Source: Bacteroidales bacterium (GTDB lineage Bacteria; Bacteroidota; Bacteroidia; Bacteroidales; JAFGHD01). Taken from it: a stretch of DNA of 57,490 bases. Made by a program: the position numbers and the translations under genes. How positions within the stretch are numbered: position 1 is the stretch's first letter; each line of letters opens with the position of its first letter. The DNA lies in contig JAFGHD010000174.1 in the NCBI GenBank assembly GCA_016939365.1, positions 1 through 57,490 of the forward strand. Reading direction: 5' to 3'. Below, one piece after another: positions 3,261 to 25,049 of the stretch. The notes under the pieces are model-generated. The model searched no databases. It saw only the letters and a list, made by a program, of their open reading frames with translations, and was not told the origin of the DNA.

Positions 3261-3268
3261 TACTGGCT

Positions 3269-4294: not shown

Positions 4295-4303
4295 AGGGTA
4301 TCA

Positions 4304-5155: not shown

Positions 5156-5179
5156 GTGCCTGTTGTTTCTGAAACATTT

Positions 5180-7816: not shown

Positions 7817-7836
7817 ATGCTTTGAATTTAATATGT

Positions 7837-9024: not shown

Positions 9025-9029
9025 GGTTG

Positions 9030-10727
9030 TCAATCTTTATCCTTGCTTCTGATGAAATGGGTGAATCTTAATATACCGTAAAGCAGATCCATTTTCTGGC
9101 TGGTGATTCTGCCGTTTTCCGGCAATGAGTTGATGATCATTGTAAGTTCCTCGAAGAAGTTCTTGTTTGCAGCGTAATTCTCATTGAAGTTGTTCCTGAA
9201 AAAATTCTCAACCTTGTCATGGTAAGGTGAAATATGGCTGATCACATCTTTTAAAAGGATCAGCTTGTATGTAAAGCTGTTCAGGAATTTTTCATCATTG
9301 ATCTTATTGAAAAAAGACCGCATCATTTTCAGAAGATCGCGGTTATTCTTATCGATGATGAAGTTGATGCACTGGCCGCTGTGCTTTCTGAAGTCGATTT
9401 TCAGGGAATTCCGCTGGTCAATTTCATATTTCAGGTAATGCATCGCATCATAGGAGGTGATTTTCGCCTCGTACAAAGGAAATTTATAATAGCTGAGTGA
9501 AATCCCATAAGTAAGAGACGGCAGCTTCTTCTCCTCGATTCCGATTTCCTTGGCAAATTGAAAGATGCTTCCAAATTCTTTATCCAGTTCGTCGATCAAA
9601 TTGAAGATGGTGATTTTCGCGGCGTTTTTTTCATTTCGGAATACCACCGGGGCAAAAAACAGCAGATCATCACCACCGCAGTATACCGGTGCGCCGCCGT
9701 GATCCAGAATCAACACAGAAGCCTTTTGGGCAAACTCAAGCATTTTTTCAGAAAATCTCCTGACCATTGAGTTTGACCGGTCATTATTTTTCTCAATTGT
9801 CCCGGCTTTTTTAATTATTTGTCCTATCCGGTCCCCATCGGCATGAACAATTGCCACATATTTGTGGTATTGCATGAATTCATCTTTAAAAGCCTTTTTA
9901 AGTCCTTCGACAAGACGGTTCTCTTCATTGTCCTCTTTCTTTCCTGATAATTCTCTCGTTATATGATTTTCAAAATGCTCCCTGTATTTTTCCGGATTAA
10001 TGATTTTGAGCTCCCTGCTTGCAATCTCAATTAAAGAGTCGAAGCCTTGGCGGGGTTTTTCATTGACCAGTTTTCTGGCTGTTTCCGGAAGTCTGATGAT
10101 TTTATTGTAGTTTTCGCTGAACCCGTCACGGTAAAGGAACGAGCCATTGACACGGTCGAAAAAAATCCTCAGTGGATTCAGCCCGGATTCATCTGTAATA
10201 TCCTCCAAAGGATTGATGCGTGCCTCCAGTTCCAGGACATCGAGAATTGCAGTGGCTTCATTGACAATATTCCCACCCGGTTGAATAGGAAATGCGGATG
10301 ATACGATCCTCAGATAGCTGAAAAGGAACGTTTCAATGTCATCCTTTTCAAAAGTGTTTATATGACCATGAATTTTGGCTGCTACATCTTTTATTACCTT
10401 GTTAATGGCATTTCTTATTCTCTGCAGGTTTTCACTGTTCTCAGATTCAATTATGATACGGTCGGGGTAAAGGCCGGCCCCAAGAACATTTTCTTCGGAG
10501 ATTTTTTCATCAAAAGGTAAAAGGATGTAGCCGTCAACTTTGTTTGTGTTGTCGACCGGTTGACCTTTTCCATCCACTGTAACCTTATCAGCCGTAATTT
10601 CCCGGATGATATTCCGTATCAGATATGAGAACAGGTAACTGGCGCCCCAGAGCTCCCTTGTTTTCCTGGCGGAAAGGAGTGTTTCGATGATGGGGCCGAT
10701 AGATATTCCGATGTAGTTCTTATTCAT
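9030..10727 (-). CDS. cmr2: Type III-B Cas10/Cmr2 with GGDD cyclase motif, no HD domain
   Basis: Cas10 is the large subunit that, when the complex binds foreign RNA, makes a nucleotide second messenger. This 565-residue version starts directly in the first palm domain (ISIGPIIETLLSARKTREL, with WGASYLFSYLI), so the usual N-terminal HD nuclease is absent and it should not cut DNA. The second palm has HADGDRIG and an intact YCGGDDLLFF (GGDD at 351-354), so nucleotide polymerisation should be active. In Bacteroides fragilis an HD-less Cmr2 beside CorA and NrN joins ATP to S-adenosylmethionine; the same product is inferred here from context. The start overlaps the hepT stop by 8 bp. Confidence 0.96.
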   Translation of the reverse strand: MNKNYIGISIGPIIETLLSARKTRELWGASYLFSYLIRNIIREITADKVTVDGKGQPVDNTNKVDGYILLPFDEKISEENVLGAGLYPDRIIIESENSENLQRIRNAINKVIKDVAAKIHGHINTFEKDDIETFLFSYLRIVSSAFPIQPGGNIVNEATAILDVLELEARINPLEDITDESGLNPLRIFFDRVNGSFLYRDGFSENYNKIIRLPETARKLVNEKPRQGFDSLIEIASRELKIINPEKYREHFENHITRELSGKKEDNEENRLVEGLKKAFKDEFMQYHKYVAIVHADGDRIGQIIKKAGTIEKNNDRSNSMVRRFSEKMLEFAQKASVLILDHGGAPVYCGGDDLLFFAPVVFRNEKNAAKITIFNLIDELDKEFGSIFQFAKEIGIEEKKLPSLTYGISLSYYKFPLYEAKITSYDAMHYLKYEIDQRNSLKIDFRKHSGQCINFIIDKNNRDLLKMMRSFFNKINDEKFLNSFTYKLILLKDVISHISPYHDKVENFFRNNFNENYAANKNFFEELTMIINSLPENGRITSQKMDLLYGILRFTHFIRSKDKD

Positions 10728-11070
10728 TTTCCAGTTTTTTTAAAATGGACTGTAAATCAGATTTCAGGACGGGGATAAACTGTGTAATAATATTCCATAC
10801 AATGGCAGAGCTGACATCAAAATACGAATGGATGATCCGGTTTCGCAATGAAATAATCCTGTGCCAGCCTATATGCGGGTGATCATTGTAAAAGGACTCG
10901 GTAAATTTATTTGCTGCTTCTCCCAATACTTCAAGGTAGCGTTCCACGGCAGCCCGTGTTTTTCTGTCGGACTGATAATCATCATATGACATATCCCGGA
11001 TGAAGAGTTCTATATTGCCTATAGCCTCAAGCATATCCTCCAGCAGTATTTCCGCGGGTCTATTCCACAT
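10720..11070 (-). CDS. hepT: HepT-like HEPN RNase toxin (DUF86 family)
   Basis: HepT-type HEPN proteins are RNases held inactive when their partner MntA attaches AMP to a Tyr in the active site. The 116-residue helical protein carries the full motif R-x4-H-x-Y: R76, N77, H81 and Y83 in LRNRIIHSYF. The N-terminal helix bundle (ILLEDMLEAIGNIELFI) and EVLGEAANKF are also typical. Its start lies inside the end of the mntA gene (11-bp overlap) and its stop overlaps the cmr2 start by 8 bp. It is thus translationally locked into the Cmr operon rather than lying beside it. The active site looks intact. Confidence 0.92.
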   Translation of the reverse strand: MWNRPAEILLEDMLEAIGNIELFIRDMSYDDYQSDRKTRAAVERYLEVLGEAANKFTESFYNDHPHIGWHRIISLRNRIIHSYFDVSSAIVWNIITQFIPVLKSDLQSILKKLENE

Positions 11071-11338
11071 AAATCACCTCATTTTTGATGTTTTCCCATT
11101 GTCTGGGCTTTAATGACTCCATATGGATGAGATCCACTTTTTTACCGAGTAACCGTTCCAGTTCATCCGCAAGGTCTATGAATTCGATACCTACAGGCCC
11201 GGTGAAGCTGACCAGTATATCCACATCGCTGCCAGCAGTGGCGTCGCCCCTGGCCTGCGAACCGAAAATGGCCATGCGGTCAATGGGATAGTGGAGGCGA
11301 AGCGCAGGCAGGAATGACTGAAGTTGTTGTACGATCAT
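11060..11338 (-). CDS. mntA: MntA-like minimal nucleotidyltransferase antitoxin
   Basis: MntA is the antitoxin of HEPN/MNT pairs and silences HepT by AMPylating it. The 92-residue product has the nucleotidyltransferase signature FGSQARGDATAGSDVDILV: Gly26-Ser27, then the metal-binding Asp pair D38 and D40, followed by GKKVDLIHMESL, where a third Asp is expected. The start shares one base with the cmr1 stop (TAATG) and the end overlaps hepT by 11 bp. Antitoxin-before-toxin order is retained. The complete catalytic set suggests a working enzyme. Confidence 0.92.
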   Translation of the reverse strand: MIVQQLQSFLPALRLHYPIDRMAIFGSQARGDATAGSDVDILVSFTGPVGIEFIDLADELERLLGKKVDLIHMESLKPRQWENIKNEVIYVE

Positions 11339-12741
11339 TATTGATTGGTTTTCTTTAAACTGGAATATATTTTTCTAAGAATATCAAAATTATCATGATG
11401 CTTGAATTTTTTTTCAATATGCTTTTCTATATCAAACTTCTCTATTATCCAATCAAATAGTATGTTTATATCTTTAATATTACCAATTTTGAGAGTTAAA
11501 GATGCGCGAGTATCTTTTTGAATAATAAAGCGTTGTTTAATGAAATATTCAGGAATTGGCTCAGCTTCAAAATATACAGTATAGCAGTTTTTTTCTTTTT
11601 CATAAAATGGTAAAAATCGTATTGGTGATTTGAATCTTTTAACAAATTCGTTCTCATTATTTCCCCTTCTGATCCAGGTACCAGGTAGTTCCTCTTTAGC
11701 ATGTGTTTTTATAAGCTTTGCTTTCCCGTAGTTTCTCCATGACTCCTCTGTTGAGAGTCCAAATAAATCCCTCCAGAGATAAAGTTCACCGTTTTGCTGG
11801 ACAGTTTTAAATAATTCTGATTTTTCATGATAATTTCTCTGCTCGTCAAAACCCCTTTCATAAACCTTGTCGGCATTTTGTATATCACTTATTCTTCGAG
11901 ATATTGCATTAATTTCTCTTGGATCAGCATCTCTTTGATAGTATTGTCTATTAAACAGTTTTTCTTTTATTGTTTTTTTGTCCCACTGAATTCTTTTTTC
12001 GTACAGGAATTTAAATAACAATGACTTAAAATAAAAAACTGATTCTGTTGTATTGAGTATTTCATCATTACCATCGTCATTTATGTCTTTCTTAACAAAC
12101 TTGAATTTATCCTTAATGTTAATTCCAGATCTGAGGCTTCTATAAAATAGATCAATATAATTAAATAATAATTTACCTGTTTCAACCCAGTCATCTGATT
12201 TAGCTGTCGGTGATACAGTGAAAAAGAACTTTTTATATGGCGTATGATAATAATTATTATTTCGAAAAGCATCGCTGGATTTCTCAGGAAAAAAAAAGCC
12301 ATATCCTTTGGATTGTCTATTGCCAAAACCACCAATGCTGAAAAAAGAACAAATGTTTTCATTTATCAGGTCTAATAGACCTTTACTATAGGAATGAATT
12401 ATCATTTTTAATGAACCCTCGACAAAACTCATCTTGAACTTATTGTGATTTCCAGTTCCCATATGGCCAAAAAAAGAGCCCCATCCTTGACATTCCTGCC
12501 AACAAATCCCTGCACCTTCATATAATTCTATTTTAATTTTGTATTTAAGTGATTTCTTATCCTTTTCCCATACTTGCTTCCATTCATCCATTATTGGAAT
12601 ATTATTCATCTTACAGAAAGAAATAATAAAATGATCAAGTTTTGGTTTCAATTCTGTCGCCCTCAGCGTTGCTCCAAGCTGATCGTGCTGGAAATGGATG
12701 AGCGGGGTGTGCTGCTTCAGTGTGAATTCGATCTTATACAT
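11338..12741 (-). CDS. cmr1: Type III-B RAMP protein, Cmr1-like
   Basis: This 467-residue protein occupies the Cmr1 place; Cmr1 sits at the head of the Cmr complex and contacts the 3' part of the crRNA. The opening TLKQHTPLIHFQHDQLGATLRATELKPK and the glycine-rich SIGGFGNRQSKGYGF fit divergent Bacteroidota Cmr1 proteins with two RAMP folds. The middle is Lys/Asn-rich. The gene is far more AT-rich than its neighbours: 14 G+C of 60 bases in both 11401-11460 and 12001-12060, against 31 of 60 in corA at 13561-13620. This may mean separate acquisition. A 73-bp AT-rich gap, the longest in the operon, lies before it. The alternative is another RAMP family member at the same position. Confidence 0.78.
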   Translation of the reverse strand: MYKIEFTLKQHTPLIHFQHDQLGATLRATELKPKLDHFIISFCKMNNIPIMDEWKQVWEKDKKSLKYKIKIELYEGAGICWQECQGWGSFFGHMGTGNHNKFKMSFVEGSLKMIIHSYSKGLLDLINENICSFFSIGGFGNRQSKGYGFFFPEKSSDAFRNNNYYHTPYKKFFFTVSPTAKSDDWVETGKLLFNYIDLFYRSLRSGINIKDKFKFVKKDINDDGNDEILNTTESVFYFKSLLFKFLYEKRIQWDKKTIKEKLFNRQYYQRDADPREINAISRRISDIQNADKVYERGFDEQRNYHEKSELFKTVQQNGELYLWRDLFGLSTEESWRNYGKAKLIKTHAKEELPGTWIRRGNNENEFVKRFKSPIRFLPFYEKEKNCYTVYFEAEPIPEYFIKQRFIIQKDTRASLTLKIGNIKDINILFDWIIEKFDIEKHIEKKFKHHDNFDILRKIYSSLKKTNQ

Positions 12742-12814
12742 GGTTTTCGGGTATTAATTCGATTTTTATATGGGTTATGATATTACCGTTTATGATTGCA
12801 TTATAGCTGATTTT

Positions 12815-13339
12815 TCAATGTGTGTCCGGATCGTTGCCGCGAAAAGCCTGATTGTATTCCTGCCACAGGATCAGGAATTTCTTTTCGTCCACCTCTTCCT
12901 TCTCATTTGTGTTTTTCCTTATGCTCGTTTTTTCATCCTTTTTCTGCTCTGTTGTTTCGGTGTCGGAGGTTTTGGTTTTGCTCAGCCCGATCAAACGGAA
13001 AAAGTCCTGATTCCTGAGGCCTTCCTCTGTCTTTGCAGATGAATTTCTCAGTAATTCCGCGGAGTGCTCCTTTTCCCATTGCATCCGGTCAAGCTCATAT
13101 CGTTGTTTCAAACCGTTCTGGGCAAGCAAATACCAGTACCTGATCAGGTTCAATGCAAGCCATATGACTCCGGCCATCAGTACCAAAAGGGTAAAAGGAT
13201 AAAGGATCCTTAGCCATTTCGAAAAAATGTTAGATTTGTCCGGGATAAGATCCGGTAAAAAGAAAGAGGCCGGTATCATGACCACCGCTACGCATGTTAT
13301 GATCAGGGCAGTTCTCAGAAATCGTCTGTGGTTTTCCAT
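12815..13339 (-). CDS. Two-helix membrane protein encoded with CorA
   Basis: I do not recognise this 174-residue protein as a member of a named family. Two hydrophobic segments are clear, about residues 8-30 and 44-68, followed by a charged, mostly helical cytoplasmic-type tail of about 105 residues rich in Lys and Glu, ending near EYNQAFRGNDPD. There is no signal peptidase site. The start lies 25 bp inside the end of corA, so the two are probably translated together, which suggests a partner or accessory subunit of the CorA effector. Cmr1 follows after 73 bp. Function is unknown. Confidence 0.72.
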   Translation of the reverse strand: MENHRRFLRTALIITCVAVVMIPASFFLPDLIPDKSNIFSKWLRILYPFTLLVLMAGVIWLALNLIRYWYLLAQNGLKQRYELDRMQWEKEHSAELLRNSSAKTEEGLRNQDFFRLIGLSKTKTSDTETTEQKKDEKTSIRKNTNEKEEVDEKKFLILWQEYNQAFRGNDPDTH

Positions 13340-14991
13340 GTGTTGTATGTTTTTTTATTTCTGCTTCGCGGAATGAACACAATCCACACGATCAGGCTGC
13401 TCATTACAATACTGAACATGCTGATCCAGAATGGCCAGCGAACAGCCAGGTACAAACTAGACTTATCAAACACATTCATTCCGAATATACCGGCGACGAG
13501 TGCGGCCGGAAGGAAGATGGCCGATAACCTCGTCAGCCGGGTGATGATCCTGCTTTCGTTGCGCTGTTCTTTGAGATTCACGTATCCGTGCAGCTCGCTG
13601 ATCTCTGCATCCAGATCCTTCACCTGTTCGTTCAGCTTCATGTGTTTCTGCAACAGGTCGTACAGCTCTATGCCCTGCTCCTGTGCGGTCACCTCCCTGA
13701 AATATATCTTGTTGACGAACCGGATATACTGTTTGTAAAGGCTGCCGACCTTGTCGGGCAGCTTCTTCTCATTCACCCGGATCAGTCCGGATATATCAGT
13801 GACCTCATCAGAGAACTTCAGGATGCAGGCTCTTTGCACCAGGCACAGTTCCACCAGCTTGTAGTACATGGTCTGCATGTGATTGACCAGGAATGCAGCG
13901 TCATTCTTCCTGAGAGTGGTAAGCTCCGGAGTCAGACATACAAATGAGTACCGGCTGACACCGAAGAAGGCGCCGTAGTCGAGCCATCGGTCATTTGTGT
14001 GTTTTCTGAGCAGGTCTTTGGCCATGAGTGTATTCCGGCAGGTTCTGGAGTACGCGTCCACAAAAAGGTATTTGTAAAACCAATCCAGCCGATCCGGTAA
14101 ATCTTCGTTTATTACGTTTGTATCAATGATATTTTTCTTCCACTGTGATTCAAGTTCATTGGTCAGGTGATCGTTTCCGTACCAGCATACCACGAACATC
14201 CGGTCGTCCATCACAGGCGAGATTTTTATCTTCAGCCCGTCCATGTGGTCGCAGGTTTCTGTGGTCAGTGGTACCCCCCTGAACAACCTGCTGATGAATG
14301 CCGGAAGATTGAAAATGCCTCTTCCGAAATTGCCGGATGCGGTATATTTCATAAAGTCTTCAGATGCTTCCCCTGTGATGCCGATTTCTTGGGATAACTC
14401 ACTGTTTTTGACCATTTCAAGGCCTTCCATGAAACCGCCGGGCAAAAACTGGCCGGCAGTGCCGATCATATCTCCCGGGATACCGAAATACGGGGGATAC
14501 AGCCTGCGGCCGTACTGGTTGATCCGGAGTATGTCTTCGGGTTCCTTTTGCTCTGAATTCCTGTTGTTCAGATGAAAACTCAGCACCCCGACTCCTGTGC
14601 TGTAGAGGTGCAGTATGATGCTGTCGATGAGCAGCCGGTATTCTTTGTCCGGAGGCTTAATAATATAATGTTGCGTGTCCGGGGCAAGGTTGTATTCGAA
14701 ATGTGCCAGGAATGCATCTTCGTCCCCTGGTTGTGAGCAGGATGCCGGCGCCCTCCTGTCATACAGTATATCTCTGACAAAGTCATAGAAGTAATTGGCT
14801 TCGTTATACTTCAGCCTGCTGTTGACATCAAAGCCGGTTCTTTTCCATACGGATAACGGTAAAGAGCCGGTAAAAGGCCCGAGACTGCATTTATCCTCAA
14901 GCAAGGCTTCAGCAAACCCTTTTCCGCAGTTTTCCCACTGGAAAGGAAAGAGGAAGACATGATAGCTGTAAAGTTCATCAAGATTATCCAT
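13315..14991 (-). CDS. corA: CorA-like membrane effector of type III CRISPR signalling
   Basis: CorA proteins form pentameric cation channels. This 558-residue version has a long soluble N-terminal region (about 480 residues, longer than in classic CorA), a coiled-coil-like stretch (LNEQVKDLDAEISEL), then two membrane helices at about 487-505 and 519-540 with the family motif GMN at 504-506 in GIFGMNVF. In Bacteroides fragilis a CorA encoded with a Cmr system is activated by SAM-AMP and disrupts the membrane to stop phage. The same role is inferred here from the neighbours NrN and HD-less Cas10, rather than housekeeping magnesium uptake. It overlaps nrN by 8 bp and the two-helix protein gene by 25 bp. 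Confidence 0.9.
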   Translation of the reverse strand: MDNLDELYSYHVFLFPFQWENCGKGFAEALLEDKCSLGPFTGSLPLSVWKRTGFDVNSRLKYNEANYFYDFVRDILYDRRAPASCSQPGDEDAFLAHFEYNLAPDTQHYIIKPPDKEYRLLIDSIILHLYSTGVGVLSFHLNNRNSEQKEPEDILRINQYGRRLYPPYFGIPGDMIGTAGQFLPGGFMEGLEMVKNSELSQEIGITGEASEDFMKYTASGNFGRGIFNLPAFISRLFRGVPLTTETCDHMDGLKIKISPVMDDRMFVVCWYGNDHLTNELESQWKKNIIDTNVINEDLPDRLDWFYKYLFVDAYSRTCRNTLMAKDLLRKHTNDRWLDYGAFFGVSRYSFVCLTPELTTLRKNDAAFLVNHMQTMYYKLVELCLVQRACILKFSDEVTDISGLIRVNEKKLPDKVGSLYKQYIRFVNKIYFREVTAQEQGIELYDLLQKHMKLNEQVKDLDAEISELHGYVNLKEQRNESRIITRLTRLSAIFLPAALVAGIFGMNVFDKSSLYLAVRWPFWISMFSIVMSSLIVWIVFIPRSRNKKTYNTWKTTDDF

Positions 14992-15751
14992 GTCTGATCA
15001 GATTGATGATCTCCGGAATCCAATTGTGTATAATTTCGGTTTCTGTGAACGCGCTTTCAGCCAGGCCGAAGAATCCATTTTCACCGCCTCCGGAATACGC
15101 TTTGTTTGACTTGATAAAGTCTGTGTACCTGGCAGACAGCAACGCCACTCCGTTTCCGTAAAAGCAAAGATTTCTTGAAGTGTAGATCAATAGACGGTGG
15201 TCCAGTCCGTATCTCCGGTCGGTGATCGCTGAGAATTTCATTGTCTCAGACCTGATAACCGTTATTCCGTTTCTGTATTCAAGATTGTTTTCGATGCTCT
15301 TTTCGGCCAGTTGTTCATCTCTTTCTGTGACGCCCTGGGCCTCTCGGTCCTTTGCCCTGATTTCGCAGATCAGCTCTTCCGAGGCACCCATCTGCTTCAT
15401 GGCCGGGATGTAACCGCGGTCGTTGGCTGCAACAAGCTTTTGATAATCAGTTAATTCTATGTTAAGCAGACCGGCGACCTGCTCGATGGAGGTGGGCCAG
15501 CCTGATTTTTCATTATGGTGGTCGATCTCGATGTAATCTTCAGGAGGAGTGGTGTCTCTGATCAGTTCAATTCCGACAGGAATACCCTTCATACTGTCAA
15601 GCAGATCGTAGTAATGGCTGAGCCTTGCGCCCCAACTAAGGTTCCTGTCGTAAAAAGGTAAACTCTTTTCATGAAGGATTGAACGTATCTCAAGCATTTC
15701 GAGATCATGGCCTCCGAGTAGAAAAAAGTAGGGTTTGATGTTGATCATCAT
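14984..15751 (-). CDS. nrN: DHH-family phosphodiesterase, NrN-like, probable SAM-AMP hydrolase
   Basis: The 255-residue protein has the DHH motif at 77-79 (YIEIDHHNEK), an earlier metal-binding region GGHDLEM and a C-terminal glycine-rich YSGGGENGFFG comparable to the DHHA1 part. Such enzymes split short nucleotides. NrN proteins next to CorA in Bacteroides fragilis type III-B loci degrade SAM-AMP and so switch the signal off; this protein is proposed to do the same. I place the start at ATG 15751, which overlaps the stop of the VWA gene (ATGA), rather than 19 codons further upstream inside that gene. The end overlaps corA by 8 bp. A general nanoRNase is the alternative, but the operon context argues against it. 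Confidence 0.88.
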   Translation of the reverse strand: MMINIKPYFFLLGGHDLEMLEIRSILHEKSLPFYDRNLSWGARLSHYYDLLDSMKGIPVGIELIRDTTPPEDYIEIDHHNEKSGWPTSIEQVAGLLNIELTDYQKLVAANDRGYIPAMKQMGASEELICEIRAKDREAQGVTERDEQLAEKSIENNLEYRNGITVIRSETMKFSAITDRRYGLDHRLLIYTSRNLCFYGNGVALLSARYTDFIKSNKAYSGGGENGFFGLAESAFTETEIIHNWIPEIINLIRHG

Positions 15752-16503
15752 TCGTCGAAATTGATCAGCATTGCACTGAACCGTTTCGGGCTGAAATCCG
15801 CCCTGCAATGCGTGAAATACTCTTCCCAGAACTTCTGAAGCCGTGTAAAGCTGTCGGAATCTGAAGTGTTTGCCCCTGAAATATAAACTTTTACCTGACT
15901 CAGGTCGGGCAGACGCTCCTTTTGACTGAGTTCATTTAAAATCCCGGAGGTCTCTTCATTGCCGGGTATTTTTCTCTCAAAATTGTAGTTACGGTCTGTA
16001 TGCATCATGTCTGACATGATCACAAGCACCTTCTGATTATTTCCGTAGTTGCTGAATACCTTTTCTGCAAGCTGAAGCGCACCTAAGATGTCCGTGGATT
16101 GTGAAGCTTCTCTTAGCTCAAGCAACGTTGATACCTCATTATGGATACTGTCCTTTAATGATCTCAGATGTATTCCAAAAACTTTTCTCTCTTCTTTTTC
16201 ATACATCGGGTTGTCGGTTTTTGACCGGTAAACCGGAAAGGACAGATTAACCGGCAGCCTGTTTTCGGCGAGGGATTTGTCGGATATCATACCTGCGACC
16301 AAAATGTCGCCGGCATCAACTGCACGCAAAACAACCGAGAAGTTATCCATGTAATTCTTACGAATGTCCTCATAATCAACGCTCCCTGAAATATCGAACA
16401 GGACGATGAATATTTTTCCTTCTCCGGGAGCCTTGTCCGGACTGCTGCAGGAAGCAACCAGAACGGACATAACAATGGTTGTGATGATATATCTGATTTT
16501 CAT
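15748..16503 (-). CDS. VWA-domain lipoprotein in the CRISPR-CorA operon
   Basis: The 251-residue product starts with a lipoprotein signal (MKIRYIITTIVMSVLVASC, lipobox ending at C19), so it should be anchored to a membrane on the periplasmic side. The mature part reads as a von Willebrand factor A-like domain: the metal-binding DISGS at 37-41 after a hydrophobic strand IFIVLF, a Thr in SQSTDILGAL and an Asp in VIMSDMMH. VWA domains bind other proteins through a metal ion. I chose the ATG at 16503 because the longer frame would bury the signal peptide. It lies 7 bp after the four-helix protein gene and overlaps nrN. Its role in CRISPR defence is unknown to me; a periplasmic sensor or clamp for CorA is speculation. 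Confidence 0.82.
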   Translation of the reverse strand: MKIRYIITTIVMSVLVASCSSPDKAPGEGKIFIVLFDISGSVDYEDIRKNYMDNFSVVLRAVDAGDILVAGMISDKSLAENRLPVNLSFPVYRSKTDNPMYEKEERKVFGIHLRSLKDSIHNEVSTLLELREASQSTDILGALQLAEKVFSNYGNNQKVLVIMSDMMHTDRNYNFERKIPGNEETSGILNELSQKERLPDLSQVKVYISGANTSDSDSFTRLQKFWEEYFTHCRADFSPKRFSAMLINFDE

Positions 16504-16510
16504 GATCAGT

Positions 16511-17641
16511 TTAGTTGAGCGTTGATACCACAATGGCATCCTCATTCGAATGACATTGCCAGTCAAGGTTTTCGGGTTTCAGATCGTCGGGGATGCTCAG
16601 CAACCTGGGTTCAGCATTGAAGCATTTCGGAGTAAGCCCTTTATGTCTGACGTACAGGTTTGCGGTCCTGTATGACCTTACCAGCCATTCAATCCTCTCT
16701 ACCAGCTCCTGCGCGTTATGGAGGATTTTACTATGACTTTTTTGCCGGAGTTGCCTTTTTTCGGCCAGTAGTTTCGATGTACGCTGTTTTTCCCTGGCAG
16801 CCTGTTCAGCGTCTTCTGATTCCCTCCTGAGCACTTTCATGGCCATTCTGTGGATTCTATGAATCCTGTTGTACTCCGACTGGTTTGCAAAGGAAGAACT
16901 GTATGAGATAAGTGTAGCTGCGAGGAAAAGCCCCAGGTTGATGATGATGAACAGAAAAGCTGCTGTGGAAGGAGACAGGTTCACCTTTAAAGTGGAATGA
17001 GACTTCATTGAATCGAACAAAACTTCCCTGAAGATCGCGAGGGAGATGATCAGGCACACAGCGAAGACCGGGACGATCAGCAGAAAAATCTTCTCTGTTG
17101 TACTTTTCGAACTTTGTTTCAGTGTTTTACCGAACCAATGCGCAAGCAAAGGTATTGTGGCGCACATTCCCGCGGCCATTAAGTAGGTTTCGGCCAGTCC
17201 TGCTCCGAGTATCTGGAATGCGATACTGTTCAGGGGAAACTCAACCACTCCGATGAACAGGAGCCAGAACAGCGCTCCATTCCTTGAAATGGTTGGTTGA
17301 GGAAATTCACTGAGTTTTTTCTGGGTGGCATTGACTTCTACTGCTGCTGCCGCTGCGTCCTGCGTTTCTTTATGCAGGGATTCTTCTGCATTTCTGTGCA
17401 ATTGCATAAGCATGCAGTATTCAGATTTAAGCTTCTTATCCGTTTCTTTCCAGTCGGCACAAATCCGCATGAGCTTCTGCTGCCCAATTTCGAAAAGCTC
17501 AGATTCATATAGGGCCGGTTCTTCCTGATCAACAGGCGGATAAGGGTCTTTGGGTGCTTTATCAAATGGCCAGAACCGCCACCGGAAATCCTGTCCATCC
17601 TGCTTTCCTTTCCTTCTGACTTTTCGGTAGGAATAATGCAT
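16511..17641 (-). CDS. Four-helix membrane protein with flanking coiled coils, first gene of the cas operon
   Basis: I do not recognise a named family in this 376-residue protein. It has a basic N-terminus, a predicted coiled coil (about 60-115: KLMRICADWKETDKKLKSEY then Ala-rich helix), four hydrophobic segments at about 125-148, 152-173, 183-206 and 222-248, and a second long charged coiled coil (about 258-320). Both ends are probably cytoplasmic. The start is taken at ATG 17641, since the longer frame begins with TTG. It heads the minus-strand operon and is followed after 7 bp by the VWA lipoprotein gene. Together with that lipoprotein, CorA and the two-helix protein it could form a membrane complex; that is inference. 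Confidence 0.75.
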   Translation of the reverse strand: MHYSYRKVRRKGKQDGQDFRWRFWPFDKAPKDPYPPVDQEEPALYESELFEIGQQKLMRICADWKETDKKLKSEYCMLMQLHRNAEESLHKETQDAAAAAVEVNATQKKLSEFPQPTISRNGALFWLLFIGVVEFPLNSIAFQILGAGLAETYLMAAGMCATIPLLAHWFGKTLKQSSKSTTEKIFLLIVPVFAVCLIISLAIFREVLFDSMKSHSTLKVNLSPSTAAFLFIIINLGLFLAATLISYSSSFANQSEYNRIHRIHRMAMKVLRRESEDAEQAAREKQRTSKLLAEKRQLRQKSHSKILHNAQELVERIEWLVRSYRTANLYVRHKGLTPKCFNAEPRLLSIPDDLKPENLDWQCHSNEDAIVVSTLN

Positions 17642-18021: not shown

Positions 18022-19680
18022 ATGAAAAAGACAGCAGTATTGATGGCAACGGCCTGCCTGATCGCAGCCGCCCTGAACGCACAACCACCACAGGGCTTCA
18101 AATACCAGGCGGTCATACGCGATGGCAGCGGAAATCTCATCACGAATCAAACGGTCTCCATCAGGATCAGCATCCATGATGTTTCTCCTTCGGGTACCGT
18201 GGTATACCAGGAGACGTTTATGCCCACCACCAGCCCGTTGGGGCTGATCAACCTCGAGATTGGAAAAGGAACACCTGCCATCGGCAGTTTCATGGACATC
18301 ATCTGGCGCCAGGATCCCAAATACCTGGAGCTGGAATGTGATCCGGCCGGAGGCAACCAATACATCTCCATGGGGACTTCAGAGCTCATGAGCGTTCCAT
18401 ATTCATTCTTTTCGGGCTCATCTTCCGACTCCTTCTGGCAGTCGATGGTCAGCAACAAGATATGTTACAACTCCGGACAGGTAGGCGTGGGGACAAATGA
18501 TCCGCAGGAGCTGATCGAGATATACGGCAACAATGCACCGGGGGGCCTCCGCGTCTCATGGGGTGATGCCTACCCGGGACTGTACGGCGACTTCAGACAT
18601 GAGATGGGCGGAGGCCTGCAGATAAACGCCCAGACAGGCAGCGGTACGGGCGGCTGGGCGGATATCCATTTCCAGACAAACGGAACAACAAAAATGTTCC
18701 TGGAGAGTGCCGGCAATGTGGGAATTGGAACAACCACTCCATCAAACCTCCTGGAACTGGCCTCCTCGGCACCTAAACTCTATTTCAACCGGGAGAGTGC
18801 CACATCCAACTTATCCGGATTGTATTGGAGAAGTGCTAACGACAGCTACGAAGGCGCCTTTGTCCGCAACAACGCAGACGGCAGTTTTGAACTGTATTCG
18901 GATATCAGTGGCAGCGATCCGAGACTGTTGATCACCAATGAAGGATATGTGGGTATCGGAACTACTGATCCAAATGAAGTCCTGCATGTGAATGACTGTA
19001 TCCGGGTGGGTGATGATCCTTCATATTCAACAGTATATGGTGAGCTCATCCACGAAGGTGGAGGCACCGGTTTCAGAATCAATGCCAATGCCGGTGGCGG
19101 CGGGTGGGGTGACCTGCACCTGCAGACCAACGGCAATACCCGGATGTTCATCGAATCAGCCGGCAACGTAGGCATCGGGACTACCAGCCCTGCATGCAGG
19201 CTGGATGTTCAGGGCAATGTGATCATCCGCGACCAGAGTACGGGAGACATCGCGCTGGAACTGGGCAAAGGCCTTGATTATGCCGAAGGATTCTTTGTTT
19301 CGGATGAAACCGCCATTGAACCGGGTACCGTTCTGTGTATCGATCCCGCCAATCCGGACAGGCTGAAAATCAGCGATAAGCCTTATGATAACGCGGTTGC
19401 AGGAATTGTTGCCGGTGCGCATGGTCTTGGATCAGGAGTCAGACTCGGCTCCAAAGGCTTTGACTGCGATGTGGCCCTCGCCGGAAGGGTCTATTGCAAT
19501 ACCATAGCTATTCACGACGACATCCGACCGGGGGATCTGCTTACCACTTCTCCTGTTCCGGGATATGCCATGGAAGCGGATCATCCGGAGAAGGCACACG
19601 GCGCAATACTCGGCAAGGCCATGCAGAGTCTCAGAAAAGGCGAAAAAGGCCAGATACTCGTTTTGGTCTCACTGCAATAG
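18022..19680 (+). CDS. Secreted modular protein with GIGT-type repeats (paralogue 1)
   Basis: The 552-residue product has a signal peptide (MKKTAVLMATACLIAAALNAQ) and an N-terminal domain of about 120 residues starting PPQGFKYQAVIRDGSG that is shared with the proteins at 21558 and 23133. Then come several short modules marked by VGIGTTTP or VGIGTTDP, common in bacterial surface and phage tail-fibre-like proteins. A section with NLSGLYWRSANDSYEGAFV is nearly identical to one in the protein at 21558. The C-terminus (about 410-552: EPGTVLCIDP, RPGDLLTTSPVPGYAM, GAILGKAMQSL) is a compact domain often seen at the end of such proteins. Likely exported and structural or adhesive; no catalytic motif seen, and no classic type IX sorting tail recognised. 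Confidence 0.8.
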   Translation: MKKTAVLMATACLIAAALNAQPPQGFKYQAVIRDGSGNLITNQTVSIRISIHDVSPSGTVVYQETFMPTTSPLGLINLEIGKGTPAIGSFMDIIWRQDPKYLELECDPAGGNQYISMGTSELMSVPYSFFSGSSSDSFWQSMVSNKICYNSGQVGVGTNDPQELIEIYGNNAPGGLRVSWGDAYPGLYGDFRHEMGGGLQINAQTGSGTGGWADIHFQTNGTTKMFLESAGNVGIGTTTPSNLLELASSAPKLYFNRESATSNLSGLYWRSANDSYEGAFVRNNADGSFELYSDISGSDPRLLITNEGYVGIGTTDPNEVLHVNDCIRVGDDPSYSTVYGELIHEGGGTGFRINANAGGGGWGDLHLQTNGNTRMFIESAGNVGIGTTSPACRLDVQGNVIIRDQSTGDIALELGKGLDYAEGFFVSDETAIEPGTVLCIDPANPDRLKISDKPYDNAVAGIVAGAHGLGSGVRLGSKGFDCDVALAGRVYCNTIAIHDDIRPGDLLTTSPVPGYAMEADHPEKAHGAILGKAMQSLRKGEKGQILVLVSLQ

Positions 19681-19696
19681 AAAAGGAGGAAGCGAA

Positions 19697-21160
19697 ATGA
19701 AAAATAGTTGGAAAATTGTTCCGGCCTTAATGGTTATATTGATACCCTCACGATTCGCACAGGGCCAGATGGTAAACATCGAAGAAGCGGCCAGACTGGC
19801 TGAAAACTGGATCAATGTCATCATGGACGAGCAAGGAAGCTGGGGAGCCCATCACGCAGCAAAGATCTTTCCGCCGGAAGAGATCAGAAGCGACAGCCGG
19901 CTCATTGGTTATCTCTGCAATGTGAAACCCGAAGGATATATCATCCTGTCTCTCAGAAGAGAGCTGGCGCCGGTAAAGGCTTACTCCCCAAGGGGTTACT
20001 TCGATCCTGAATCGGAGGATATCGGCACCGATATCATCAAATCCTCAATGGCTTACCTGATCGATACCATCCAGTCGAGGCTGGGTCCAATTGAAGATGT
20101 TACAGTTACTGCTCTGAAACCTTTACTGGAAATTGATTACACGGGTACCTGGGATGCGATATATAACTATGTTCCGGGTACATGGAAAAAGAAGCCGGAG
20201 GGGGACAACGGGGAAACCAATTACCAGGAGGGTGATATCATGCTCGAAGGAAACAACTGGCATCAGTACCCCCCATACAATGAATTTTGTCCTTACATGG
20301 CATGCACCACAACGTCGAACGGACGTGCATTTGTGGGATGCGTCGCCACAGCCGGATCCCAGATCATGTACCACTGGTCATGGCCGCCTTACGGTGTGAG
20401 TCCGTATAACGATTCCTATGACTGGCCCAATATGAAAGATGTGGTCACCACCTCCTCCCCCCAGGTGGAGATCAATGCGGTAGCAGAACTGGGATATGAG
20501 GTCGCCCTGGCAGTGAATATGGGCTTCGGATGCGAAGGATCGGGCGCCATCATGTATGAAATGGAAGGAGTTTTCGAGAATTATTTCAGATATTCCACCG
20601 CCTGCAATACGGTATGGAGGCAGAATTATACTTCTTCGGCATGGTTTGAATTGATCAAGGATCAGTGCAATTTGAACCGGCCCATGGAATACGGGATCAC
20701 CGGCCATGCCATCTTATGCGACGGCTGGCAGGAAATCGGCTCCCCTGCAGTGAAACAATACCATATGAATTGGGGCTGGACTGCAACGGGCAATGACACC
20801 TGGTACACCCTGGACGCCCTGCCCGGTGGAGGATTCTATATTGAGCATTTTGTCGGAAATGTGGTGCCGTCCACAGCCCTGGGAAGCTGGATCAACGGCA
20901 CCTACGGCTCCTCTTCCTTCCCATACCGCTATTTTGACCGGGATGCCATCGGATACGGCGCCGAGTTCACCTATGGGCAGTTCTTACAGTTCCTGCCAGG
21001 TGTCCAGGTGTGCGGTATGTCCTCCACCAGCCCCATCCGGTTTTCAGGAACCGATTTCCTGAACCTGCGACTGTTCTCCCATGGAGACCTGTCGCATGGA
21101 ATCCGGATCGGTGACGGTGCGATCAGACTGACAAACTACGGATCTATCAAGTTTTACTGA
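19697..21160 (+). CDS. Secreted C10-family (streptopain-like) cysteine protease
   Basis: Peptidase family C10 includes streptococcal SpeB and Bacteroides fragilis fragipain-like enzymes. The 487-residue product has a signal peptide (MKNSWKIVPALMVIL, cleavage near FAQGQ), a pro-region with RLAENWINVIM and the typical YIILSLRRELAPVKAYS, the catalytic Cys at about 215 in VGCVATAGSQIMYHW and the catalytic His at about 337 in TGHAILCDGW, followed by YHMNWGW. These are intact. About 100 C-terminal residues form an extra domain. I chose ATG 19697; the longer frame overlaps the upstream gene. It lies 16 bp after paralogue 1 and is probably co-transcribed, so it may act on or be exported with that protein. 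Confidence 0.92.
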   Translation: MKNSWKIVPALMVILIPSRFAQGQMVNIEEAARLAENWINVIMDEQGSWGAHHAAKIFPPEEIRSDSRLIGYLCNVKPEGYIILSLRRELAPVKAYSPRGYFDPESEDIGTDIIKSSMAYLIDTIQSRLGPIEDVTVTALKPLLEIDYTGTWDAIYNYVPGTWKKKPEGDNGETNYQEGDIMLEGNNWHQYPPYNEFCPYMACTTTSNGRAFVGCVATAGSQIMYHWSWPPYGVSPYNDSYDWPNMKDVVTTSSPQVEINAVAELGYEVALAVNMGFGCEGSGAIMYEMEGVFENYFRYSTACNTVWRQNYTSSAWFELIKDQCNLNRPMEYGITGHAILCDGWQEIGSPAVKQYHMNWGWTATGNDTWYTLDALPGGGFYIEHFVGNVVPSTALGSWINGTYGSSSFPYRYFDRDAIGYGAEFTYGQFLQFLPGVQVCGMSSTSPIRFSGTDFLNLRLFSHGDLSHGIRIGDGAIRLTNYGSIKFY

Positions 21161-21557
21161 AGCTTCATTAATAATTAGCAATAGCGTCACCAACTGACCC
21201 CATGTGTCCTCCTGTCTCAGGATGCTATCAAGCCTGAAATGAGCACTCTGAAAGCCCCCTCTCAGGCTTGCCCGCTGTTTAGGCGGAGGGTTGGGTGTCG
21301 GATTTTTGAAACAGAAAGAGATCACATTCCCACTTTAGCCATCAGCACAAGTTATACTGACGAAATCAGACAGTTTAAATTTGCAAACCTGATTTCCGTC
21401 ATTATACTTTCCGGCTTCAGCCTCCTTTCAACGGTGCAACATCCGTATCAACATTTGCAACAACTGTGGTAGCCAATCTCCTTTTAGTTAATTATCTTTA
21501 TATAATAGAACTAATAATCGTGAACCTGAATTTCCGGACATCTCAAATCCTGCGATT
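21161..21557. other. Intergenic region upstream of paralogue 2
   Basis: This 397-bp region has no convincing gene; a short frame on the minus strand (encoding KNPTPNPPP) looks spurious. It contains a G+C-rich inverted stretch around 21255-21300 (CCGCTGTTTAGGCGG) and, near its right end, the conserved element at 21434-21500. Confidence 0.5.
21434..21500 (+). promoter_or_regulatory. Conserved upstream element, copy 2
   Basis: This is the second copy of the element at 17905-17971. It has the same 13-base start, GTGCAACATCCGT, 30 of 36 identical bases overall, and the same 59-base distance from that start to TATCTTTA. It ends 57 bases before the start of the gene at 21558. The third paralogue at 23133 lacks it and probably depends on readthrough. 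Confidence 0.6.
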
Positions 21558-23093
21558 ATGAAAAAGCACATATTATTAACCATATTGGCCTGCTTTCTCT
21601 TGGCTACACTCAGCGCTCAAGCCCCACAGGCCTTCAAATACCAGGCTGTGGTGAGGGACAGTACCGGTCAAATCCTCCAAAACCAACCCATCGGGGTGCG
21701 GATCAGCATCCATGATAGTATTCCGGGCGGCCCCGTGATCTATCAGGAGACATTCAACAAATTCACCGGTGAGTTTGGCCTGGTTCATCTTGAAATCGGA
21801 ACCGGTACGCCAACCATCGGAACTTTTACCGGTATTAACTGGAGTATCAATTCCAAATTCATCGAAACGGAAATCGATCCTTCCGGAAGGAGATCTTATG
21901 TGTCAATGGGGACATCGGAACTATTATCGGTGCCCTATGCCCTCTATTCAGAAAGTTCTGGAAATGCTGTCTGGGAGCAATCGGGCGGCAATGCTTTTTA
22001 CAATAATGGCAACGTCGGGATTGGCACTTCAATTCCGACAAACCTGCTCGAACTCTCTTCCGCTGCCCCGAAACTTTACTTCAACAGGGAAAATTCAACA
22101 ACGAACCTGTCGGGATTATACTGGAGAAGTACATCCGATAACTTTGAAGGTGCATTTGTCAGGAACAATGCATCGGGGGGGTTTGAACTGTATTCGGACA
22201 TCACCGGTGGAACCCCGAGGCTGATGATAACAAACGAAGGCAGGATTGGGATCGGAACCACAAATCCTATTTACCGGATGCATATTGAAGATTTCATCCA
22301 TAGCGGTCAGGTATTTAAGTGTGATAACAATCAATCACAGGCATATTTGAGTTATGATAAAATTGGAGTATTCGGATGTGGCGTAACAACGCCATTTGGA
22401 GATGGCGGTACGGGAGTCAGGGGATGGGGATCTCATTATGGCGTGAAAGGAGACGCATCATATCAGGGTGTGGGGGAGAGGTATGGTGTTTATGGTTCTG
22501 CTGCTAACGGGGAAGGTGGAAATTACGGAGTATATGGATATGCCGGTGGATTCCAGGGGGCACAATATGGCGTTTACGGAAAAGCCTCTTCTGGCTGGGG
22601 TGTGTATTTTTCAGGAGGATTGGCCGGATCAGGCTCTAAAAGCGCTGTGGTGAAAACCGAGGATGGACCAAAGGCGGTTTATTGTCAGGAATCCCCGGAA
22701 AACTGGTTTGAAGATTTTGGTAGCGCCACAATCATAAATGGAATGGCAAGGATTGCTCTTGCCGGCGACTTTCTTCAGACCGTAACAATAAACAACGAAC
22801 ATCCTGCCAAAGTGTTCATCACACCTAATGCAAGGCTGGGTGATTGGTGGGTGGAAAAAGGGGATACTCATTTTATTCTTTATTCCCCTGAAGCAAAAGA
22901 CGGATCGGCATTCGATTATCGAATTGTTGCCAAACGGAAAGGATATGAGGACCTGCGGCTGGAAATCGTTGAAGATGCGTATACGGATACCTGTTTATAT
23001 CCAACCATTGACGAAGTCCCTGACCAGTTCAAAGAAGCATGGCTGGAAGTAAACCAGAAAAAGGAGTCAGTACTATTAATAAATTTAAAATGA
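21558..23093 (+). CDS. Secreted modular protein with YGVYG repeats (paralogue 2)
   Basis: The 511-residue product has a signal peptide (MKKHILLTILACFLLATLSAQ), the shared N-terminal domain (QAFKYQAVVRDSTGQ to GTSELLSVPYALYS), two VGIGT-type motifs and the NLSGLYWRSTSDNFEGAFV section found in paralogue 1. It then has a glycine-rich repeat region with three YGVYG units (about 300-350) and a C-terminal domain (VVKTEDGPKAVYCQESPENW to AKRKGYEDLRLEI) of a type seen at the ends of other secreted repeat proteins. No enzyme motif was found. Probably a surface structural protein. Confidence 0.8.
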   Translation: MKKHILLTILACFLLATLSAQAPQAFKYQAVVRDSTGQILQNQPIGVRISIHDSIPGGPVIYQETFNKFTGEFGLVHLEIGTGTPTIGTFTGINWSINSKFIETEIDPSGRRSYVSMGTSELLSVPYALYSESSGNAVWEQSGGNAFYNNGNVGIGTSIPTNLLELSSAAPKLYFNRENSTTNLSGLYWRSTSDNFEGAFVRNNASGGFELYSDITGGTPRLMITNEGRIGIGTTNPIYRMHIEDFIHSGQVFKCDNNQSQAYLSYDKIGVFGCGVTTPFGDGGTGVRGWGSHYGVKGDASYQGVGERYGVYGSAANGEGGNYGVYGYAGGFQGAQYGVYGKASSGWGVYFSGGLAGSGSKSAVVKTEDGPKAVYCQESPENWFEDFGSATIINGMARIALAGDFLQTVTINNEHPAKVFITPNARLGDWWVEKGDTHFILYSPEAKDGSAFDYRIVAKRKGYEDLRLEIVEDAYTDTCLYPTIDEVPDQFKEAWLEVNQKKESVLLINLK

Positions 23094-23132
23094 TGAGTAA
23101 TTCTTTATAGGATATACTTAATATTGAATCTT

Positions 23133-25049
23133 ATGAAAAAGTTGTCTTATTTTTTTCTGTTTGTTACGCAAATAACAATCGCCCAGTCACCGCAGGCCTT
23201 CAGATACCAGGCCGTGGTGCGGGACAATGCAGGTCTGATCCTGCAGAACCATATTGTAGGAATCAGGATCAGCATCCATGACGGCAATCCGGGCGGGACC
23301 ATTGTTTACCAGGAAACCTTTACCGGGACGACCAACGAATTCGGACTGATGAACCTGAATATCGGAACCGGTCTTCCTGTGATTGGTGCTTTCACTGGTA
23401 TTGACTGGGGAAACAGTTCCAAATTCATTGAAACGGAGGTAGACCCTGCCGGAGGAACAAGTTATGTTTCCATGGGAACCTCACCACTGCTTTCGGTTCC
23501 CTTTGCACTGTATTCAGGCGCCACGGGAGATACCTCCTTATGGAGGAAATCGGGTGATACCATTTATTACCTTACAGGTAACGTGGGGATTGGAACCGCC
23601 AGCCCTCAGGGGGAACTCCATATAAACAATCCCTTTGAATGGCAGGGAATTACATTCACAGGAACCGGACTGAATGACCTTACCGTTGATTACAGCAGCT
23701 TTAATGGCTCAGGGACTGTTTACTACATAGCTGAAGTGACCAATGCCGGGCCCAATCCCAATATTTTCAGGTACAGCAATGACAACGGCGCAACATGGAC
23801 CGAAAATGTTCCCATGGCAAACTCGGGCATTGACGTCGGTTACGGAGTTACAATAGGTTTTGGCGCTTTGGTTGGCCATACGTATGGAGACCAATGGTCA
23901 TGGATCATTTCAGAGAGTTATTCGGATGAGTTGATCGTGAAGAATGGAAATATAGGTATAGGTAATTCAGATCCCGAAACATATTTACACATACTGAGTG
24001 ATACCCAGTTTAATCCGGAAGCCCTGGGCGGACGCGAACTGGGTTCCCAGCACCTTGTTTTAACCAATGGTACGCAGGGATTATATAAGTATGGGCCGGC
24101 GCTATCATTTGGCGGTATCAATACAGGCCGTCGCCGTGCAGCCATTGTCCCCATACAGACCAGTAATGACCCGGACCAGATGGGCCTGGCATTTTTTACC
24201 CACCCTGCACCACAAGCCTCCAACAACACCGTTACACAGCAAATGCAGATTGATCATAATGGAAATGTGAGTATCGGGACAACAGACGCTTATGCAAAAT
24301 TGCATATTCTTGGTGCCATTGGACTTACCGGGCTTAGAGTAACTGATGCTTCTTATGGGATGAATATTTCCAATTCCGGAAGTGATGGGCTAACCATTTC
24401 CAGTTCTGGTTGGCATGGAATAAGTATCTATGTATCAGGTCATAGTGGTGTATATGTCACCAATTCTGGTGATGATGGAGTGTACGTTTATCAATCCGGA
24501 AGTGACTGGGGATTTTATGCTTATAATGATAAAACATACTCTCAGGGGGGGTATTATCCGGCAAAATCCGGATCATTCGCAAAAAATACAGGACAGGAGG
24601 TCCTGGAACCGGGCGACATGGTATGTGTTTCCGGCGGCCTGGAAGAAAACGCATTGGGTGAGGAGAGTGTTCCTGTTATCAATGTCTCGATAGCAAGAAG
24701 CCATTGCTCAGAGGCTCTGTTCGGTGTGGTTGAGAGTCGCGTATATGTGCACGAAGAAAATATCGAACTGGATAAAGGCAATTTTGCAGTGCATAAAAGT
24801 TTTCGGTTCGGGGAAGGCGCCATTAATCAGGGTGATTACCTTACTGTGGTCGTATTTGGAATTGCTGATGTAAAAGTAGATGTGGCAGGAAATATCAAAT
24901 CCGGGCAAAAACTTACTGTTTCCGAAACCGATGGAATAGCCAGAAGCATCATCGGTGATGAAAACTGGGTGGTTACAGGCATCCTTGGCAAAGCCCTGGA
25001 GAATTCAGACGGATCAGGAATAATGAAAGTATTTGTGAATTGCAGGTGA
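23133..25049 (+). CDS. Secreted modular protein with decapeptide repeats (paralogue 3)
   Basis: The 638-residue product has a signal peptide (MKKLSYFFLFVTQITIAQ) and the same N-terminal domain (QAFRYQAVVRDNAGL to GTSPLLSVPFALYS). I use ATG 23133; an upstream TTG is less likely. A middle module (about 170-260) has an aromatic-rich section with YYIAEVTNAGPNPNIFRYS. About residues 415-470 contain five near-perfect ten-residue units of the form SG-x-x-G-hydrophobic-x-hydrophobic, for example NSGSDGLTIS and NSGDDGVYVY, likely a small beta-helix. The end (EPGDMVCVSGG to VVTGILGKALENSDGSG) matches in style the C-terminal domain of paralogue 1. It starts 39 bp after paralogue 2, likely in one operon. 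Confidence 0.8.
   Translation: MKKLSYFFLFVTQITIAQSPQAFRYQAVVRDNAGLILQNHIVGIRISIHDGNPGGTIVYQETFTGTTNEFGLMNLNIGTGLPVIGAFTGIDWGNSSKFIETEVDPAGGTSYVSMGTSPLLSVPFALYSGATGDTSLWRKSGDTIYYLTGNVGIGTASPQGELHINNPFEWQGITFTGTGLNDLTVDYSSFNGSGTVYYIAEVTNAGPNPNIFRYSNDNGATWTENVPMANSGIDVGYGVTIGFGALVGHTYGDQWSWIISESYSDELIVKNGNIGIGNSDPETYLHILSDTQFNPEALGGRELGSQHLVLTNGTQGLYKYGPALSFGGINTGRRRAAIVPIQTSNDPDQMGLAFFTHPAPQASNNTVTQQMQIDHNGNVSIGTTDAYAKLHILGAIGLTGLRVTDASYGMNISNSGSDGLTISSSGWHGISIYVSGHSGVYVTNSGDDGVYVYQSGSDWGFYAYNDKTYSQGGYYPAKSGSFAKNTGQEVLEPGDMVCVSGGLEENALGEESVPVINVSIARSHCSEALFGVVESRVYVHEENIELDKGNFAVHKSFRFGEGAINQGDYLTVVVFGIADVKVDVAGNIKSGQKLTVSETDGIARSIIGDENWVVTGILGKALENSDGSGIMKVFVNCR

Follow-up and report, generated by a model that had tools for sequence, protein, structure and literature searches.

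A four-helix membrane protein and a predicted VWA lipoprotein recur as a two-gene module across type III CRISPR-Cas loci

What does a membrane protein of no recognised family do at the head of a type III CRISPR-Cas operon? The question is raised by a contig of 57,490 nucleotides from a Bacteroidales bacterium (JAFGHD010000174.1, assembly GCA_016939365.1; the whole stretch is referred to below as the window), in which a minus-strand run of genes encodes a protein with four transmembrane helices (4TM), a putative lipoprotein with a VWA fold, NrN, CorA, a small membrane protein, Cmr1, a HepT-like protein and Cas10, followed by Cmr3, Cmr4, Cmr5, Cmr6, a REC-like protein, Cas6 and RT-Cas1. The original prediction, made from the letters of the window, had the 4TM gene heading the cas operon, as it does: it is the first gene of the run, and the next gene upstream (18022) sits on the opposite strand. 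That prediction had further suggested that the protein might recruit the Cmr complex or scaffold the CorA effector, and it had missed the VWA lipoprotein, a constant partner encoded next door.

The operon and its two leading genes

The 4TM gene occupies 16511–17641 on the minus strand, with an ATG start at 17641 and a stop codon ending at 16511, and encodes 376 aa. Translation from a TTG at 17677 would also be mechanically possible, but it is the ATG to which the N-termini of relatives align. The AlphaFold2 model (mean pLDDT 85.6, pTM 0.61, from an alignment of 14 sequences) agrees with the predicted layout of two long cytoplasmic helices around four membrane helices. It places a helix of 68 residues (residues 44–111; 17309–17512) before four membrane-type helices, TM1 (residues 120–143; 17213–17284), TM2 (149–175; 17117–17197), TM3 (181–212; 17006–17101) and TM4 (224–249; 16895–16972), and a second long helix of 78 residues after them (254–331; 16649–16882). 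Hydropathy exceeded the cut-off for membrane helices 1, 3 and 4, helix 2 being less hydrophobic. Outside the long helices lie two segments delimited by alignments, which we refer to as the head: an N-terminal one (residues 1–43; 17513–17641; alignments A5 and A11) carrying a basic/aromatic motif that is conserved in the CRISPR-linked clade and ends R-F-W-P-F in the window protein, and a C-terminal one (residues 332–365; 16547–16648) with the pattern R..P.CF ... L.W.C. Since conserved motifs are found at both membrane-distal helix ends, we infer a stalk with a cytoplasmic head. Two charged residues lie inside the membrane, Glu134 in TM1 and Arg205 in TM3, each conserved in 14/14 rows of alignment A7; across the ten rows of A11, the Arg is present in all ten and the Glu in nine, with Asp at the Glu site of the protein from locus L073. 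Retention of both residues by relatives at 15–39% identity indicates that the 4TM gene is more than a chance ORF.

The expectation that the protein would belong to no nameable family was borne out. The window protein had no family at cut-off in Pfam or NCBIfam and zero PADLOC matches, so we rejected its assignment as an ordinary transporter; the housekeeping transporter that would have spoken against the original prediction did not appear in the Pfam search. Pfam searches with the 14 members of A7 returned scattered weak names, the best shared being Tetraspanin (three members, 0.0044) and the lowest E-value being 0.00085 for TRP in one member. A known solved relative was rejected as well: comparison of A7 with PDB sequences yielded one designed helical protein (E 0.03), and Foldseek of the model against PDB and viral libraries gave no match with E < 0.001, many of the matches listed being long helices and coiled coils and those to TolQ and ExbB being weak (E 0.15 and above). 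No CorA domain was matched in the 4TM protein by Pfam or PADLOC, the neighbouring CorA gene being matched by both, and profile searches of the 4TM and VWA proteins matched no CARF, SAVED or other sensor-domain family.

Directly downstream, after a gap of seven bases, lies the gene for the partner (15748–16503, minus strand; 251 aa). Its AlphaFold2 model (pLDDT 83.2, pTM 0.80) has a von Willebrand A (VWA, integrin I-like) fold, matching the VWA chains 6sn1_B (Z 15.3, rmsd 2.8, 177 aligned) and 4fx5 (Z 14.9, rmsd 2.6, 165 aligned), and the Pfam search returned no sequence family at cut-off. The N-terminus, as read off the sequence, is hydrophobic and is followed by Cys19 (16447–16449), which we take to be a lipidated lipobox cysteine and which is present in 11/11 proteins of what we call the MIDAS type. 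On the definition that we assume for the metal site of the fold (MIDAS), DxSx(S/T) completed by T and D, the window protein has the complete set: D37-x-S39-x-S41 (16381–16395), T137 (16093–16095) and D165 (16009–16011). The five positions (D, S, S/T, T, D) are retained in ten of the eleven MIDAS-type proteins, the eleventh having S instead of T. The first strand of the modelled domain begins 11 residues past the cysteine, so the VWA domain should lie close to the membrane.

Beyond the pair, the VWA gene runs straight into NrN, a predicted SAM-AMP phosphodiesterase (14984–15748, minus strand; PADLOC DHH_CorA, 2.7e-82), followed by the CorA effector (13315–14991, minus strand; PADLOC CorA 1.9e-129, Pfam CorA 4.1e-14), the small membrane protein, which has a charged tail (12815–13339, minus strand; an ORF with no family at cut-off), and the type III-B genes from Cmr1 to RT-Cas1, including the HepT-like and REC-like ones (972–12741, minus strand; Pfam and PADLOC). 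The end of a CRISPR array, with three repeats of 37 nt at a spacing of 73, lies at the window edge (5–187). No coupling protein or relaxase was found among the window genes around the pair.

Several other features of the window deserve mention in their own right. The HepT-like gene between cmr1 and cas10 (10720–11070, minus strand; Pfam 4.7e-27) is without an obvious MntA-type partner. The REC-like protein of 283 aa between cmr6 and cas6 (4304–5155, minus strand) is without a confident family, and a link to the REC proteins of locus L031 was rejected at best E-values of 1.2 and 0.033. A small charged-tail membrane protein between corA and cmr1 is found both in the window and in the NrN locus L033 (6737–7147, minus strand). 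Three genes upstream of the operon (18022–25049, plus strand) have a common N-terminal region and encode secreted-looking repeat proteins that are apparently paralogues.

Occurrence of the pair in CRISPR loci and outside them

The 4TM protein is rare, few genomes being matched across the searches. Counting its own genome each time, the protein itself was found in three genomes in a search of 60 relatives, profile A1 in seven of 295 genomes of the window's order, and profile A3 in five of 395 genomes of the phylum. Profile A5 matched five of 164 genomes in the order of genome G341, including a broken match in G808; a diverged second type of 4TM protein was found in two of 96 genomes, and the VWA profile A6 in two of 20 genomes of the order of G333. 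Searches of contigs returned no locus with the window 4TM protein and four with A5, among which L039, L040 and L041 match genomes G705, G341 and G555. A plasmid gene was rejected as an explanation, no relative of the window protein or of that from locus L002 being found among the plasmids searched, and so was a phage gene, no relative being found in the viral contigs searched with A5.

The 4TM gene immediately precedes the VWA gene on the same strand in 18/18 loci examined, with gaps from −80 to +51 bases and a four-base overlap in seven; two of the 18 (L073 and L074) came from the VWA-profile search, and a 4TM gene adjoined each. The VWA halves of the second and first types are strongly related in profile comparison (98.8, 7.6e-17) and the 4TM halves moderately (hhalign probability 74.7, E 2.6e-5). 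The second-type 4TM (L058/L063) gave no significant match to that of L074 (hhalign probability 1.2), and the case for homology of the L074 4TM half comes from the VWA partner (99.6), gene order, and Glu/Arg positions in a forced alignment.

CRISPR loci of subtypes III-A, III-B and III-D house seven of the 11 MIDAS-type pairs, and an eighth adjoins csx3, so the defence linkage that the original prediction implied is borne out for this type. Locus L029 (G341) carries a III-A Cas10 (1.2e-94), Csm2, Csm3, a CARF protein, a Mem_01-like protein and then 4TM and VWA, with Cas6 (named by near identity to the L039 Cas6) further on, as well as a reverse transcriptase that the contig end truncates. The III-B locus L030 (G555) runs from an array through RT-Cas1, Cas6 (assigned by eye), VWA and 4TM to Cmr6 to Cmr1 and an NrN-CorA fusion, and the III-B locus L039 (G705) reads Cmr6, 4TM, VWA, Cas6, with the Cas10 and NrN-CorA of that genome on another contig. 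At L038, Cas1 with a partial RT and Cas2 (by eye) precede an array of seven repeats, 4TM, VWA and a TraD/HerA-like ATPase. A single contig of G704 (loci L047 and L058) holds two pairs: a diverged, second-type pair is flanked immediately by a Csx3-AAA gene on one side and a III-D Cas10 on the other, the contig continues with III-D genes, CARF, Cas6 and Cas2 (by eye), CARF-HEPN, RT-Cas1 and a large array, and beyond these come an ATPase sharing 41% identity with the L038 one, a kinase-like ORF and then a first-type pair. The likely eighth, L063 (G675), has a second-type pair with Csx3-AAA close to the end of a contig, and its Cas10 lies on a different contig. The pair is thus carried both by loci with SAM-AMP genes (NrN, CorA) and by loci with cOA genes (CARF, Csx3), which argues against one specific messenger. 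An RT or RT-Cas1 occurs in 5/5 loci with adaptation genes in view (the window, L029, L030, L038 and L058), a count that is weak because RT-Cas1-like long ORFs are common in the order concerned.

Some recurrent arrangements were seen alongside. The TraD/HerA-like ATPases (L038 5291–7831 and L047 5017–7470), 41% identical over most of their length, both adjoin a CRISPR array and a 4TM-VWA pair in different genomes, with mad8 as best PADLOC match; relatives of the L038 type were not found in five of the eight genomes searched, including that of the window, so such an ATPase is not a general partner. The gene triple csx3-AAA, 4TM, VWA occurs in two genomes (L058 1151–4012 and L063 8512–11227). NrN and CorA form one ORF in G555 (L030/L050) and G705 (L059, which adds a CorA-like C-terminal ORF), and in G197 NrN is split in two ORFs (L036 3820–4577) beside a membrane protein and a long ORF before Cas10.

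Comparison of L029 (III-A) with L039 (III-B) revealed two common blocks, 95.4% identical over 1957 and 98.4% over 1026 bases, which start ten bases before 4TM, span 4TM, VWA and Cas6 and end just past Cas6, with an insert in L029. The interference genes preceding the block differ, being Csm in L029 and Cmr6 in L039. The pair therefore appears to move as a cassette, independent of Cmr and CorA. In the DNA of L029, L038, L039, L047 and L058, phmmer found no CorA match (G705 has CorA on another contig), and in the III-A (Csm) and III-D loci carrying the pair it matched neither NrN nor CorA. A profile search of five other NrN loci (L033–L037, some partial, from the same order as the 164 genomes) found either gene in none. 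NrN-CorA accompanies the pair in the window and L030 and also occurs in genome G705.

Among the 164 genomes of G341's order, Cas10 was present in 47 and 4TM in four, all within the 47 (Fisher p = 0.006 with the G808 match, E 5.8e-6 with internal stops, dropped beforehand; p = 0.024 once it is counted). MIDAS-type pairs lay in CRISPR loci or beside csx3 in 8/11 cases versus 0/7 for the other pairs (p = 0.0038, a value that treats non-independent loci as independent and includes L063, where Csx3 near a contig end is the sole cas context). The number of loci is low, L029 and L039 nearly duplicate each other, and physical position outweighs co-occurrence as evidence of linkage.

Three of the 11 MIDAS-type pairs lie outside CRISPR loci. 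That of L031 (G333) adjoins receiver-domain proteins, and that of L074 (G333) stands alone. The pair of L073 (G825) adjoins a cytoplasmic VWA protein, a PP2C-like protein, a kinase and receiver-domain proteins, a set of neighbours that in our view resembles the TerY-P triad; the stretch 8357–14367, with pair, cytoplasmic VWA, PP2C-like phosphatase, kinase and two receiver-like genes, is a possible signalling or defence cluster. One receiver-cluster protein is common to L031 and L073 (E 1e-9).

The seven further pairs are unrelated to CRISPR. In six genomes (L011–L015 and L032), the pair immediately precedes genes for a VirD4/TraG coupling protein, a MobC-like protein and a relaxase, with an ArdC-like gene in five of the six, the names coming from Pfam for three L011 proteins and the L032 coupling protein and by eye for the remainder; at L016 a diverged pair stands alone amid housekeeping genes. 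The MIDAS threonine is retained in 0/6 mobilisation-type proteins, and the N-terminal basic/aromatic motif is absent from this type in alignment A7. A Cas10 search of 14 genomes was positive in five (G000, G341, G555, G704 and G705) and found none in the seven genomes of the mobilisation or stand-alone type, in G333 or in G001. The VWA tree of 16 rows separates nine MIDAS rows from seven mobilisation or stand-alone rows (support 100/99, with a long-branch warning); in the 4TM tree, the window is nearest L038, L029, L039 and L030, with several open forks. These diverged relatives, six in mobilisation modules and one alone, mean that the family as a whole extends beyond defence, partly against the original prediction.

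Possible roles of the pair

We consider it most likely, at a probability of roughly 0.4, that the pair works at the inner membrane as an exchangeable platform or transducer through which the envelope is coupled to a nucleic-acid machine in the cytoplasm. The two-gene membrane module would be an exchangeable accessory of type III CRISPR-Cas loci in this phylum. The 4TM protein would sit in the inner membrane, its two long helices reaching into the cytoplasm as a stalk whose far end would carry the conserved head built from the N- and C-terminal motifs. The lipoprotein would hold a metal-dependent, ligand-binding VWA domain on the outer face of the membrane or in the periplasm, where, being near the membrane, it could reach just the short 4TM loops. 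The VWA side may bind a partner in the envelope or outside the cell, and the stalk head may bind and position, or signal to, the cytoplasmic machine, presumably the type III machinery here and, in mobilisable elements, the coupling ATPase. The complex itself, its orientation, the placing of the head at the stalk tip, the binding of a ligand and the target of the head are all features that we infer, the geometry being limited by the pTM of 0.61 and the 14 sequences behind the 4TM model, and the orientation resting on the lipoprotein reading and a weak charge bias (20 K+R versus 20 D+E N-terminally, 23 versus 17 C-terminally). Because the module is common to type III loci with differing messengers, mobilisation modules and receiver/kinase clusters, a platform or transducer is likelier than a messenger-specific effector.

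An effector role is nevertheless a possibility, if a doubtful one: infection might open a pore, a channel or an envelope-disrupting complex formed by the pair, a second effector beside the CorA or CARF proteins. The conserved acidic and basic residues inside TM1 and TM3 would suit a gated channel, and membrane effectors are common in type III systems (PMC11229360, PMC10600005). A lethal pore would be odd in mobilisation modules, however, and three further results count against it: the profile searches matched no sensor domain, both SAM-AMP-type and cOA-type loci carry the pair, and no PDB match reached E < 0.001. That the pair consists of mobile-element genes captured in CRISPR islands, with no immune role, seems unlikely. 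Homologues do occur in mobilisation modules and alone, a TraD/HerA-like ATPase adjoins two CRISPR pairs, and the contigs are from MAGs, but the CRISPR clade retains its MIDAS and is separate from the mobilisation clade, the pair recurs in three subtypes, and in the window it leads an operon in which VWA and NrN are continuous.

A partnership with crRNA processing or spacer acquisition (Cas6, RT-Cas1), for instance as a membrane site at which RT-Cas1 samples incoming RNA or DNA, is in our judgement quite unlikely. It would fit the exchanged cassette of 4TM, VWA and Cas6, the position of Cas6 as next cas gene in L030 and L039, and the RT or RT-Cas1 of the five loci, if that weak count is given any weight; yet the window pair lies about 11 kb from Cas6 and leads NrN-CorA, and the L058 pair abuts Cas10. 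Recruitment of the Cmr complex or scaffolding of CorA, as originally proposed, is the least probable. One operon does unite the pair with Cmr and CorA in the window, and NrN-CorA recurs in L030 and G705, but the pair accompanies Csm or III-D complexes elsewhere, is without a CorA match in L029 and L047/L058, and is missing from the five other NrN loci, which makes either role improbable; as a general role the idea is largely refuted.

The platform or transducer could take a more specific form, speculative and rather improbable as a whole, in which the MIDAS VWA lipoprotein is an envelope receptor sensing phage adsorption, DNA entry or mating contact and the 4TM stalk relays this by recruiting or licensing type III machinery where entry occurs. 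Mobilisable elements, at the coupling ATPase, and kinase/phosphatase/receiver clusters would then have taken up the same module. If true, an integrin-like sensor would feed an RNA-guided immune system.

Relation to known systems and significance

Most known accessory genes of type III loci encode second-messenger effectors or the off-switches of these. The ancillary membrane effectors among them (CorA, Cam1, Csx23, Cam2 and Cam3) are likewise membrane proteins in type III loci and in a defence context, whereas the pair has no messenger-sensing domain that we found, has a constant VWA lipoprotein, and occurs in both SAM-AMP-type and cOA-type loci as well as outside CRISPR. Zorya ZorAB and TolQR-type complexes combine inner-membrane helices, a cytoplasmic helical tail and an outside partner; the 4TM protein is similar in layout, with a VWA lipoprotein as its presumed outside partner and weak PDB matches to TolQ/ExbB. 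The partner resembles VWA (integrin I-like) proteins in fold and MIDAS residues, and differs from other VWA proteins as a lipoprotein paired with 4TM and without a sequence family at cut-off. The mobilisation modules (VirD4/TraG, relaxase, ArdC-like) of six genomes have a homologous pair of 4TM and VWA-like genes immediately before the coupling-protein gene; this pair differs in its loss of the MIDAS threonine (6/6), in the absence of the N-terminal motif and in coming from genomes without Cas10. In PADLOC, no model matched the window pair, and the ten proteins taken from other loci (five 4TM, five VWA) were matched no better than by chance, with two matches at E 0.026 and 0.027. In its available part, the FLSHclust survey (PMC10910872) describes systems related to vWA that lie near CRISPR loci together with kinases, phosphatases and transmembrane proteins, and that part does not name a 4TM stalk with an extracytoplasmic VWA lipoprotein; the pair may be among its unnamed clusters. 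Our literature search found no description of such a pair, with this possible overlap in view.

The pair is conserved as a two-gene module across distant type III CRISPR loci, with a diverged form in gene-transfer elements, and 4TM and VWA supply two new profiles for finding such systems. A pair predicted to span the membrane, with an adhesion-type, metal-dependent domain outside, suggests a physical or sensory link of type III immunity to the envelope, a suggestion supported by the cassette common to III-A and III-B and by relatives at the coupling protein of mobilisable elements. Together, these observations hint that the type III system may have a built-in link to the cell envelope.
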